Notes under the pieces: generated by a model | What the model was told of the DNA's origin: nothing | Seen by the model: the letters and a program-made list of their open reading frames with translations, nothing else | Databases searched by the model: none | Shown: piece by piece, positions 27,038-64,000 of the stretch | Numbering within the stretch: the stretch's first letter is position 1 | How the letters are laid out: every line of letters begins with the position of its first letter | Made by a program: the position numbers and the translations under genes | NCBI GenBank assembly: GCA_003168335.1 | Contig: PMSM01000007.1 | Location: forward strand, 240,912-304,911 | DNA from: Blastocatellia bacterium | GTDB taxonomy: Bacteria; Acidobacteriota; Blastocatellia; Pyrinomonadales; Pyrinomonadaceae | Length of the DNA: 64,000 bases | Reading direction: 5' to 3'

Positions 27038-27490
27038 ATGGCCGGTAAGCACCTGAGCCTGCTGGTGCATTTCATCTGGAGCACCGCAGGACGGGAACCA
27101 TGGATCGGGACCGATTGGCAGGACGATCTTTACGGTTACATTGGCGGGATAATGAACAACAAGAACGCCAGATTGATTTGCGCTGGTGGAATGTCCGACC
27201 ACATTCATCTGTATGCATCTTTACCGTCAACGATCACGATCGCTGATTTCGTCAGCGTGGTAAAATCCAACTCATCGCGATGGATTCATCAATCTTCCCT
27301 TAAGCGTTGGGCATTTGCGTGGCAGGAAGGGTACGGTGCGTTCAGCGTCAGCAAGTCGGAAGAACAGAAAGTGGTTAGGTACATTCGAGATCAGGAGCGC
27401 CATCATGGCAAACACAGTTTCAAGGATGAGTTTCTCGAGTTTCTTGATAAGTACGAGATTGAATATGACGAACGATATTTGTGGGACTGA
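27038..27490 (+). CDS. REP-associated tyrosine transposase (RAYT, IS200-like)
   Basis: 150 aa Y1 transposase of the TnpA-REP family. Seen: HLSLLVHFIWSTAGREPW at the N-terminus, the HUH motif in GGMSDHIHLYASL, a KSNSSRW segment, the catalytic Tyr in WQEGYGAFSVS, and the C-terminal VVRYIRDQERHHGKHSFKDEF. Length is normal for the family, and all catalytic residues are present, so it may be active. Both flanks carry inverted copies of the same palindromic element. These proteins cut and join REP DNA as single strands. No accessory tnpB is present. Comes from an accessory insertion between the TPR gene and a secreted-protein gene. Confidence 0.92.
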   Translation: MAGKHLSLLVHFIWSTAGREPWIGTDWQDDLYGYIGGIMNNKNARLICAGGMSDHIHLYASLPSTITIADFVSVVKSNSSRWIHQSSLKRWAFAWQEGYGAFSVSKSEEQKVVRYIRDQERHHGKHSFKDEFLEFLDKYEIEYDERYLWD

Positions 27491-60413: not shown

Positions 60414-61751
60414 TCATTTGAAACTAATAATGACATCGACAGTCTTGCTTTGCGCGTCAGGTTTTGTTTCCACTTCAACCCTGGCGCGGGAACTGCTGTG
60501 CGATCGTTGCATCAAACCATTCATGAACTCTCGCAGGCCGGTCTGCCGGAAATCATCAATGTATGACTCGTCAAATACTGCGTTGGAACCAAGCGTCCAC
60601 TTTGCCTTCAATTGCTCCGCGTCTTCCGGAGACAGGCCCGTGATGATCAACTTGCCCATGAAATACCGAGGCCCCTCAGTCACGCCGATTCGATAGCTCA
60701 CGCGCCGGGTTGAATCGTCGAACTCCACGGACTCTTTGACCCCGGCGGCCATATATCCCCGGTGGCCGTAAGCCTTTCGCACATCCTTCAGGCCCTTGTC
60801 TATCTTGAGGCCGTCGGCAACTTCGCCGGCTTTCATTCCCAATGCAATCGCCAAATCCTCGTTAGTCAACGCCTGGTTCCCGGACCATTCGGCCGCTTCC
60901 CACGAATAGACCACGCCTTCGTCAACCGCAATTGTGACCGCCACTCCACCGGCGCACTGGCTCGGCGATTCTTCAACTACGGCGGTCGGCGGCTGAAACT
61001 GTGCGCGCAGATGTCCCAGATGACGATAGAGCGGAAACAGCGTGTAGTCAGCAAACACGCCGGCGTTCTTGCGCGAGTAATCACTCTTGAGCAAAGACTG
61101 GGAAGCCTTAATCAGGTCGGCCTCAGAGATTGCGGCCGCGCCCTGAAAGTGCAGCGAGCACACCGGGATCTTAACGCCCTCGACCGTAAATAGAATTTCT
61201 TGCCGGCCATTGCCTGAATACGGCATATGCTCGACGCGACCAGAGATTCCCTTCTGGCTCAACAACCGCTGCAAGGCCGCGGCGATCTTGTCGGTCGTGG
61301 TGCCCGCTTCGGGCGCAGTTCCGTCAAAGAAGGGCACATCCTGTCTAATCGCCCGAGCGATCTCGTCCTCGCGAAACCAGACAAAGTTCTCAAAGACCAC
61401 CGGCAAATTTCTGGACGCTTCTTCGACCTCGAAGATCAAAGTGGTTTCGTTATTGGCGGTGTGAACTTTGTATCCCAGTTTTTTGAACAGGCCCGACTGC
61501 ATCAGTTTCTCGGCCGCCGCGTCGATGGCCTCGCGAGTCACGCTATCGCCAGCTTTAAGGCCGCTGGCATCCAGGGCCTGCTGTGCTGTCAATCGCTTAA
61601 GGCCGACGAATTCGATCCGGCGCAACGTTACTGGCTGCTGCGCCCGGCCAGGCGTGCTGGACACGAACAACAGCGCTACAAAGATCGCGGTGAGCCCCAG
61701 GCTCTGGTGCCAGTGACGAATGCTCAAATGGTAATTGTGCGTGTTTCTCAT
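60414..61751 (-). CDS. POTRA-domain exported protein without barrel
   Basis: 445 aa. Signal peptide (LTAIFVALLFVSSTPGRAQQ), then POTRA-like units: VTLRRIEFVGLKRLTAQQAL at about 41-110, a second through FRED..GISGRVE, a third near SLHFQGAAAISEADLI, another near EWSGNQALTNEDLAIALGMK and a last near YFMGKLIITGLSPEDAEQL. No BamA/TamA-type C-terminal beta-barrel is present; the protein ends VEVETKPDAQSKTVDVIISFK. It resembles the periplasmic part of an outer-membrane assembly factor. Role in envelope biogenesis is inferred. Confidence 0.85.
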   Translation of the reverse strand: MRNTHNYHLSIRHWHQSLGLTAIFVALLFVSSTPGRAQQPVTLRRIEFVGLKRLTAQQALDASGLKAGDSVTREAIDAAAEKLMQSGLFKKLGYKVHTANNETTLIFEVEEASRNLPVVFENFVWFREDEIARAIRQDVPFFDGTAPEAGTTTDKIAAALQRLLSQKGISGRVEHMPYSGNGRQEILFTVEGVKIPVCSLHFQGAAAISEADLIKASQSLLKSDYSRKNAGVFADYTLFPLYRHLGHLRAQFQPPTAVVEESPSQCAGGVAVTIAVDEGVVYSWEAAEWSGNQALTNEDLAIALGMKAGEVADGLKIDKGLKDVRKAYGHRGYMAAGVKESVEFDDSTRRVSYRIGVTEGPRYFMGKLIITGLSPEDAEQLKAKWTLGSNAVFDESYIDDFRQTGLREFMNGLMQRSHSSSRARVEVETKPDAQSKTVDVIISFK

Positions 61752-61820
61752 CGGGTTGACTCCGGCCCCGCGCTTAAAGCATCTTCAGCAGTATCCGATT
61801 CTAGCTTGTATGGTTTGAGC

Positions 61821-62426
61821 ATGGAAGGCAGGCAATTGAAAACTGGCGGCAAGCCGGCCCTAGCCACCAGACGCGATCTGATAATCGCGGCGTGGGATCG
61901 TCTGGGACGTGCCACGATTGGCGAATCCGAACTCCGCGAGATTCAACGATCGATTCGCGGTGAGTTCGGTCCGGGGGCCAACGAAAGCCCGGCGGCCATT
62001 GCTCGCATGCTGGCCGATGAAGGCGCGGAGTTGCGGCATCCTGAAGTTATTGAGTTCGATGCTTGCTGGCGCGAAGCGAAGATCGAAAGCGAGCGCGAAA
62101 AACTCAAGGGGTTGGAGGACTTCCTCGCAGGAAAACCTCTGCGACTCAAGAAAGCCGAGATCCTAATCAAGAAACTAGAGAAGTTGCGTAAGAGTTCGGA
62201 AAGCTCAGGCGATCAGATAAGTTCAAAGCAGGCGAAAAATATGGCGGCCAATGGCAGGCAAATCGCCGAGTCATTGGCGAAAGATCAAACCCTGAATCAA
62301 ACGCAACGCGACGAGCAGGCCGAGATTGCGGCGTGGCTCAAGGTGTGGATTCAAACGCCTGGTTTGTTTGCGGATTGGCTCGAACTCCGTCGGCGCTCGC
62401 CGGATTTCATTGGGAGATTCGGTTAG
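61821..62426 (+). CDS. hypothetical basic alpha-helical protein
   Basis: 201 aa from ATG 61821 (MEGRQLKTGGKPALATRRDL). The open frame runs 198 codons further upstream, but that part is antisense to the POTRA gene. Highly charged and helical: DLIIAAWDRLGRATIGESEL, REIQRSIRGEFGPG, KLKGLEDFLAGKPLRLKKAE and LRKSSESSGDQISSKQAKNM. No known motif. Divergent from the POTRA gene with a 69-bp gap. Possibly a nucleic-acid-binding small protein, but I cannot support a family. Confidence 0.5.
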   Translation: MEGRQLKTGGKPALATRRDLIIAAWDRLGRATIGESELREIQRSIRGEFGPGANESPAAIARMLADEGAELRHPEVIEFDACWREAKIESEREKLKGLEDFLAGKPLRLKKAEILIKKLEKLRKSSESSGDQISSKQAKNMAANGRQIAESLAKDQTLNQTQRDEQAEIAAWLKVWIQTPGLFADWLELRRRSPDFIGRFG

Positions 62427-62437
62427 CGCCGCTTTTG

Positions 62438-62803
62438 ATGTCCGACAAACTTCAGTTTGTCGATCTCTCACGATGGAACATTCGCCCACGGAACTCAACG
62501 ACAAACTAAAGGAACCTCTGACTAAGTGTCTGCGACGCGTAGCGTCCGCATGAACTTAGCCCGGCGTTTCAACGCCGGGATCAGGTTAGTCTCTGTTCTC
62601 GTCGCGTAGCGACGATTGAATCCGTTGGTTTCAGGCGTCGCTACGCGACGCGAACACCTCGTTGCCCCTTCCCGGCCTTGAAAGGCCGGGCTAAATTCAT
62701 ACCGACGCTACGCGTCGAAAGTACTTGATCAGAGTTTCCTTCAGTTTGTCGCTTCAAGTTGAGAAAGCGTTAGAGCATCGACAAACTGAAGTTTGTCGGA
62801 CAT
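62438..62803. repeat. nested giant palindrome of about 366 bp
   Basis: Outer arms 62438-62464 and 62777-62803 are perfect 27-base inverted repeats (ATGTCCGACAAACTTCAG, TTTGTCGAT). Inside, symmetric about 62625: GACGCGTAGCGTC (62534) with GACGCTACGCGTC (62704); TTAGCCCGGC..GCCGGGA (62556-62580) with 62670-62694; GTCGCGTAGCGACG (62601) with CGTCGCTACGCGAC (62636). Occupies most of the 491-bp gap 62427-62917. Confidence 0.85.
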
Positions 62804-62810
62804 AAACATC

Positions 62811-62880
62811 GCCGCTCCTAAAGGAGCTTCTCAAATCCTTCACTACGGCATGGCCATAAATATTTCGTCCCTCCGGGACT
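62811..62880. repeat. GCTCCTAAAGGAGC-family palindromes
   Basis: GCCGCTCCTAAAGGAGCTTC and TAAATATTTCGTCCCTCCGG, GACTC. Related to the cluster at 40151-40292. Lies between the giant palindrome and the gatA stop. Confidence 0.6.
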
Positions 62881-62917
62881 CTCCGCATCAACAGGCTTAT
62901 GTTCTTGATTGAGCGTT

Positions 62918-64000
62918 CTAAGCGAACACTCGCGGCCGGGCATTCAACGGACGCGCTGTCTGATAGGCGTGAGCCAGGCGAAGCAATCTCGCTTCGCTCC
63001 AGTAAGGGCCGAGTAGTTGCAGTCCTATCGGCAGTCCGTCAGAGGACAGTCCGCAAGGCACGCTGATGCCGGGTACTCCCGCGAGATTCGCCGTCACTGT
63101 ATAAATGTCGTTGAGGTACATCGCCAGCGGATCGTCAACCTTTTCACCGAAAAGGAATGCGGGCGTGGGCGTCGTCGGCGTCAGCACGGCGTCGCACTTC
63201 TCGAAAGCCCTGGTGAAATCCTGGCGCAGTAAGGTGCGCACCTGCTGGGCTTTCAAATAATAAGCGTCATAGTAACCGTGCGATAGCACGTAGGTGCCCA
63301 GCATAATGCGGCGCTTCACTTCCGGACCAAAACCTTCATCGCGCGTCTTGCGATACATTTCCTTTAGCGCCGGGGCGTCTTTGGCCCGAAAGCCGTAGCG
63401 GACGCCGTCAAAGCGCGCCAGGTTCGAAGAAGCCTCGGCCGTGGCAATGATGTAATAGACGGCAATCGCGTATTTCGCATGCGGCAAATCGACGTCGACA
63501 ATTTCCGCGCCAAGATCGCGATAGGCTTCTATCGATTTCTCAATCGCGGCGCGCACTTCCGGATGCACGCCTTTGCCCAGCAGGACCCGGGAGACTCCGA
63601 TTCTCAAACCTTTTACGTCTTCGTTAAGTTCGGCTGAGTAATCAGGCACCGGCACGTCCGCAGTGGTCGCATCCGAACTATCGCGACCCGCGATGACTTG
63701 CAGCACCGCCGCGGCATCGCTGACTTCGCCTGCCAGGACTCCGATTTGATCGAGTGACGAACCGAACGCGACTAAACCATAACGCGACACGCGACCATAA
63801 GTAGGCTTCAATCCAATCACGCCGCACAACGCCGCAGGCTGGCGCACCGAGCCGCCGGTGTCAGAGCCGAGAGCGACCGGGACAATCCCCGCAGCGACCG
63901 CCGCGGCCGAGCCACCAGATGAACCGCCGGGCACACGGGAAAGGTCCCAGGGATTTTTCACTGGTCCAAACGCGGAGTTCTCGTTGGAAGATCCCATGGC
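62918..64000 (-). CDS. gatA: Asp/Glu-tRNA amidotransferase subunit A, 5' part outside window
   Basis: About 360 C-terminal residues; the gene starts beyond 64000. Amidase-signature enzyme: [18 protein letters not shown], glycine/serine-rich core [16 protein letters not shown] with catalytic Ser, [40 protein letters not shown], and C-terminal [20 protein letters not shown]. GatA releases ammonia from Gln or Asn for GatB, correcting misacylated Glu-tRNA-Gln and Asp-tRNA-Asn. The visible part is intact. gatB/gatC are not in view. Confidence 0.96.

Follow-up and report, generated by a model that had tools for sequence, protein, structure and literature searches.

The stretch of DNA analysed, 64,000 nucleotides long and hereafter called the window, holds a composite inverted repeat (positions 62425 to 62816; features are given without strand unless one is indicated) between two convergent genes. 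The upstream gene (61821 to 62426, plus strand) encodes 201 amino acids and reaches the outer arm of the repeat with its stop codon. The gene facing it (62918 to 63997, minus strand, 62918 being the 3' end) encodes a putative gatA-like amidase. An inverted-repeat search of the window recovered the perfect 27-base arms announced by the preliminary description of this DNA (62438-62464 and 62777-62803); they lie within a longer outer pair of 40 nt (62425-62464 and 62777-62816) that is 90% complementary. Two further pairs are found inside, one of 82 nt (62499-62580 and 62670-62751, 84% complementary) and a central one of 30 nt (62594-62623 and 62627-62656, 87%). The layered hairpin reported at the same time was borne out by the prediction for single-stranded DNA, as the region 62430-62810 folds at -133.7 kcal/mol, far beyond 100 shuffled sequences (-54.3±4.2 kcal/mol; z -19), and the distinct types of repeat units that had been named are present in the window. 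The single centre proposed near 62625 holds for the inner pairs, whose coordinates sum to 125250 (pairing at 110 of 190 ungapped positions, compared with 64 at the next best centre), but not for the outer arms, which sum to 125241 and leave the outer layer 4.5 bases off the common centre. A search of positions 61000-64000 with the Rfam covariance models gave no match at the gathering score, and no known RNA family was thus recognised in the repeat.

We looked for the palindrome at the corresponding place in sister genomes, as had been suggested. A relative of the upstream gene was found by tblastn in all six same-genus loci tested (L134-L139), and both flanking genes were on one contig in five of the six same-genus genomes searched; in the sixth (G002), the upstream gene alone was found on its contig. 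The palindrome was absent between the flanking genes in all five genomes, where the gap between the two tblastn matches measured 30, 189, 209, 501 and 503 bases.

A REP-carrying mini-transposon with IS5-type ends

The core of the palindrome (62511 to 62739) is a REP-carrying mini-transposon (MITE) of 229 bp with IS5-type ends. Both ends read GGAAMCTCTGAYYAAG inward, forming terminal inverted repeats at about 62511-62528 and 62722-62739, and the absence of any ORF of at least 80 amino acids between 62511 and 62739 makes it a transposase-free element. A search of the genome itself at the DNA level gave 94 matches on both strands, and the core was found in eight copies: that of the window and those at C13:536, C9:156, C9:67, C13:276, C8:22, C9:233 and C12:252 kb. 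Six copies measure 229 bp and the two others 232 and 218 bp; all can be aligned end to end, five are nearly identical, and the seven copies aligned with that of the window carry variants of GGAAMCTCTGAYYAAG at both ends. The terminal pattern, with up to three mismatches, matched the genome 19 times and its reversed control not at all.

IS5-group elements make a 4-bp target duplication. Here the duplication has the form TNNA, and it is identical on the two sides in six of the eight copies and agrees at 3 of 4 bases in one; the left/right pairs outside the window are TTTA/TTTA, TGAA/TGAA, TAAA/TAGA, TTCA/TTCA, TTTA/TTTA, TTCA/TTCA and TCAA/TCAA. Overall the duplication thus varies among copies and agrees within a copy, except that the window copy itself is mismatched (TAAA/TTCA, 2 of 4 bases in agreement).

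The cargo of the MITE is an A-type REP array (62533 to 62717), the same units being found beside a RAYT gene (see below). It consists of six hairpins (62534-62546, 62560-62579, 62600-62614, 62636-62650, 62671-62690 and 62703-62717), among which CCCGGCGTTTCAACGCCGGG (62560-62579, plus strand, with a TTAG head at 62556-62559) has an inverted copy at 62671-62690 (minus strand; CCCGGCCTTGAAAGGCCGGG on the plus strand). The eight core copies have left/right asymmetries in common, apart from a deletion in the C12:252 copy. As the copies share these asymmetries, the symmetry of the core was inherited with the mobile element and did not form locally. A-like arrays devoid of IS5-type ends also occur elsewhere in the genome (L024-L027), and they show the same left/right differences as the MITE copies.

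At C13:438980-439249, a RAYT-type gene (Y1_Tnp) has an A array on one side and a half array on the other. This gene (L015) seems to be frame-broken near its N-terminal end: its Pfam match begins at profile position 30, and by eye the earlier codons seem to belong to the family in another frame. Its three closest relatives are 74, 71 and 64% identical over 90 amino acids. The first and the third (L171, L173) have flanking hairpins whose head is TTTAG and whose stem is changed but paired, the second (L172) has CGTCGC-type hairpins only, and two relatives at 51% (L174, L175) show an ATAG head. Hairpins with a conserved unpaired head are thus present beside related RAYTs, and the A motif itself (up to one mismatch) was found at none of 19 related RAYT loci (19 of 41 other matches). 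Anchoring on the head motif gave, unfiltered, 33 distinct A-stem units; nearly all of the 8 pairs (7-8) are formed in 16 of these units and at most 4 in the other 17, the anchor perhaps catching unrelated sites, and we place no weight on this count.

The genome (G000) has 14 RAYT/IS200-like Y1_Tnp matches in all. A hairpin with an 8-bp stem lies within 500 bp of 13 of them, a count made with no chance control, and at five loci (L009, L010, L013, L015 and L149) similar hairpins are found on both sides, which suggests that parallel REP families exist in the genome. One of these loci is in the window itself, where the RAYT-type Y1_Tnp gene at about 27056-27394 (L010) lies between two hairpins, CCACGACCGTAAGGTCGTGG at about 26960 and CCACGACCTTACGGTCGTGG at about 27535.

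Could REP doublets moved by RAYT through single-strand (HUH) transposition account for the whole structure, without a DDE transposase? The A-type REPs flanking a RAYT-type gene, and the TTTAG-type heads with changed stems at the relatives at 74% and 64%, are what such an origin would predict. However, IS200/RAYT-type movement is not known to leave a target duplication, whereas the 4-bp duplications are identical in 7 of the 11 two-ended copies of the genome, and the ends resemble those of an IS5-family element. We thus regard this explanation as highly improbable.

The window copy lies between convergent genes and touches one stop codon, and its 366 nt are predicted to fold as RNA at -220 kcal/mol (-135 kcal/mol when pairs are limited to 60 nt). 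Both features would suit a structure selected by the host, either as a bidirectional terminator or as a stabiliser of mRNA 3' ends, and the element may indeed end transcripts from both sides. Such a selected origin is nevertheless unlikely, given the five same-genus genomes that have both genes on one contig and lack the palindrome, and given the orientation of mechanically called ORFs around the eight copies (two convergent, one divergent, five codirectional); a role in termination can be a by-product. Because the gene orientations vary, no single regulatory role is suggested, and the MITE would rather be a selfish element, for which ending transcripts in both directions would be a side role at most.

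Palindromic targets and insertion at the dyad

The sequence that surrounds the MITE, hereafter the B palindrome, is CGACAAAC-TNNA-GTTTGTCG (full pattern CGACAAACTNNAGTTTGTCG). With up to three mismatches it has 140 occurrences in the genome, compared with 6 for the reversed control; as the pattern is self-complementary, each occurrence is matched on both strands (140 forward and 140 reverse matches). In the loci inspected, B usually comes as a doublet, around which a C palindrome (TTTGGAGTGCG...CGCACTCCAAA) may or may not be present, and the spacing of the doublets is about 43-90 bp in this sample. It is therefore, like REPs and REPINs, present in high copy and often paired. We also considered B as a RAYT-linked repeat; this found no support, since it is absent within 900 bp of all 14 Y1_Tnp matches of the genome. 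Halves of C were seen near two weak Y1_Tnp matches below the family cut-off (L150, L151). At two other loci (L066 and L073, G000:C12:86350 and C13:63171), the spacer of a B doublet holds an extra hairpin (CACAGGCTGCCAGCCTGTG and kin), that is, another nested layer.

Excision of the element together with one copy of the duplication restores, for example, CACAGAC-TTCA-GTCTGTG or GATAGAC-TTTA-GTCTATC. As excision leaves a palindrome, the MITE sits at the dyad of B. A second MITE with a different interior (C9:117985-118114) is likewise at a B dyad, with the duplication TTCA/TTCA.

We then compared the flanks of elements with similar ends in three groups, starting from 11 loci of the genome itself, 32 of Blastocatellia relatives (drawn from among the matches listed, and not a census) and 18 of other records. 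Rows were dropped when the duplication agreed at fewer than 2 of 4 bases or when the ends were more than 600 bases apart, which left 11, 18 and 13 rows, respectively; L058, whose left end was judged spurious, was excluded. Since the ends were picked by patterns including CTNNAG or ACTNNAG, pairing is to some extent built into the first two flank pairs, and only pairs 3-8 outside the duplication were counted. Pairs were formed at 47/66 positions in the genome itself and at 78/108 in the other Blastocatellia, that is, 125/174 combined, compared with 26/78 in the comparison group (Mann-Whitney p 1.1e-5, on copies that are not all independent, the window and C13:536 copies having a common left flank). 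Two of the 11 own copies (L022 and L023) have non-palindromic flanks, with 2 and 1 of 8 pairs formed. Such elements in Blastocatellia thus repeatedly occupy palindrome dyads.

The 13 two-ended rows of the comparison group are short elements from Thiotrichaceae, other Gammaproteobacteria, Synechococcus, Synergistaceae and two Acidobacteria MAGs (L115, with three rows, two of which have a common right end, and L120, with one). They have the same terminal repeat and the 4-bp T..A duplication, which is an identical TTAA in 10 of the 13, but their flanks are hardly palindromic past it. Scanning contigs for the MITE end followed by ACTNNAG gave 23 stretches from Acidobacteria, Gammaproteobacteria including Acinetobacter, Synechococcus and Synergistaceae. 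The two-ended elements with TTAA duplications (L109-L131) form a widespread MITE group.

These loci also bear on the concern that the palindrome is an assembly artefact, produced by misjoining. Repeats and hairpins are classic assembly traps; the locus, however, is internal to a contig of 319,614 bases, in an assembly of 14 contigs, other copies with proper duplications are found elsewhere in the genome, MITEs of the same type sit at dyads in other assemblies, and five same-genus genomes are without the insert. An artefact is, on these grounds, extremely unlikely.

Arrangement of the window copy

The window copy has the order B-spacer-half B-[MITE]-half B-spacer-B. From left to right, a first B palindrome (CGACAAACTTCAGTTTGTCG, 62443-62462) is followed by a left spacer of 36 nt (62463-62498) and by the left half of a split B palindrome (62499-62510), which ends with the left side of the duplication, TAAA (62507-62510). 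Beyond the MITE, the right half (62740-62751) starts with the right side of the duplication, TTCA (62740-62743), and is followed by a right spacer of 27 nt (62752-62778) and by a last B palindrome (CGACAAACTGAAGTTTGTCG, 62779-62798). The outer 40-nt arms of the composite resemble the inner ends of the C-type palindrome, and it is only something like these inner ends that the window retains of C.

The two spacers differ in length and in sequence. The right one is of the CTTCAAGTTGAG type known from other B doublets and is close to them (best other score 15 of 27). The left one is not; with one base different, it is common only to the C13:536 kb copy, among the loci compared, and in this copy the two duplications are identical and a simple doublet surrounds the element. 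Because the duplications of the window copy are unequal (TAAA/TTCA), recombination or gene conversion through the MITE is the simplest account, and we find it fairly probable, from the flanks and the unequal duplications only, that the window copy is a recombinant of two REP doublets. The SNPs inside the MITE tie it specially to neither of the proposed parents. A prior array of three B palindromes with a duplication that decayed afterwards may also account for it.

The preliminary description had read the palindrome as a REP array duplicated in inverted orientation. The REP units are indeed there, and the core array does consist of two inverted half-arrays; what does not stand is that the symmetry was made at this locus by copying and flipping one half of the array. 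The complementarity of the core halves (84% over 82 nt) and of the outer arms (90% over 40 nt) is what local duplication would give, the ancestral REP array may have arisen from an inverted half-array, and the two spacers, aligned inverted, keep a weak likeness (score 1.0 compared with a shuffle mean of -5.4, reached by 1.4% of 1000 shuffles). Against this are the asymmetries common to the eight copies (one deletion apart) and to the free arrays, the kinship of the right spacer, and not of the left, with other doublets, and the target duplications, which would not be expected from local duplication. For the outer REPs, inverted duplication is disfavoured by the sequence and length of the spacers as well as by the off-centre arms, even if the weak inverted likeness persists. 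Altogether, we consider local inverted duplication very unlikely.

Candidate transposase and proposed assembly of the nest

An IS with a similar end (GGAAGCTCTGAATAAGTTC) was found in a same-family genome of a sister genus (G014), where 1.15 kb of it lies on one contig (L090). It encodes a 329-amino-acid transposase that matches the IS5-family model NF033581 (1.5e-105, 352.6 bits compared with a cut-off of 140) as well as DDE_Tnp_1 and DUF772. All six contig-end copies of this IS that were inspected follow the half palindrome CA(C/T)AGAC-T(TT/AA)A. The ends of the window MITE differ from the IS end at 2 and 3 of 16 positions; they are thus similar, and not identical, to those of an autonomous IS5-family element of a sister genus. 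A protein search of the MITE's own genome gave no close relative of this transposase at E 1e-3, and its best match to NF033581 reached 32 bits, below the cut-off of 140. No close relative was found either in G049, which has 57 matches to the end pattern (up to three mismatches), and the same-genus genome G004 has a more distant relative at 69 bits, also below the cut-off. A transposase of the G014 type is likely to be the enzyme behind the MITE.

Two MITEs of G049 with IS5-type ends (L104 and L106) carry the hairpin CACCCGGTTTCAACCGGGTG, so the REP cargo of the MITEs differs by genome. In the genome of the window, this hairpin adjoins a different RAYT gene (L014, G000).

Taken together, these results make it very probable that the locus is a nest of mobile palindromes, in which a MITE carrying a REP array was inserted at the dyad of a B palindrome by a trans-acting IS5-type transposase. 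The outer layer would be made of one or two REP-like B doublets and traces of the more external palindrome C. Acting in trans, the transposase would cut at the TNNA dyad of B, insert the 229-bp MITE and duplicate 4 bp, and the MITE would bring in, between its ends, the RAYT-type REP array. All layers would keep nearly one centre, the concentric layering following from insertion at the dyad when target and cargo are both palindromes. Later recombination between two MITE-bearing B doublets would then have left two whole B palindromes, one split B and two unlike spacers.

Insertion of an IS into REP hairpins is already known. In Pseudomonas syringae, ISPsy8 is a transposon that interrupts a predicted REP hairpin at its axis of symmetry, and IS5 (ISNm1106) is among the five REP-associated families (Tobes and Pareja 2006, PMC1525189). 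The resemblance lies in insertion at the symmetry axis of a REP hairpin; the difference is that a full IS is involved there, whereas the element described here is non-autonomous and itself carries REPs, which yields stacked hairpins. REP dimers inside longer palindromes have been described in A. variabilis and H. neapolitanus (PMC3733652, 2013), and the likeness is again clear, with REP dimers within a larger palindrome. In the relevant passages of that paper, the outer palindrome is unexplained and not found without REPs, whereas in the system of the window many outer-layer copies are free and the middle is occupied by an IS5-type MITE with duplications. The work on REPINs and RAYTs (PMC3116915, 2011) describes inverted REP doublets, with REPs near a RAYT gene, both of which we also found; the A array, in contrast, has six hairpins, and eight copies of it are packaged between IS5-type ends. 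Among the matches listed in the literature, none described, by its title or the start of its abstract, a REP-carrying MITE at REP dyads. The REP-in-MITE-in-REP stack of this acidobacterium is a striking and new form of a familiar type of nesting.

The locus shows a route to very long layered palindromes in bacteria without local inverted duplication. It also connects the RAYT-linked REPs with the MITEs of DDE transposons, two classes of mobile repeats commonly handled separately. We would propose, as a speculation that is more doubtful than the nest itself, that the IS5-group transposase of Blastocatellia might choose its targets by the dyad of hairpin palindromes and not by a fixed sequence; REPs, MITEs and ISs could then recursively colonise each other's centres in a self-feeding process that would grow concentric palindromes, REPs serving as safe extragenic harbours. 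The dyad-targeted copies of Blastocatellia and the non-palindromic TTAA targets found elsewhere offer a natural comparison for asking whether the dyad is recognised by its shape or by its sequence.
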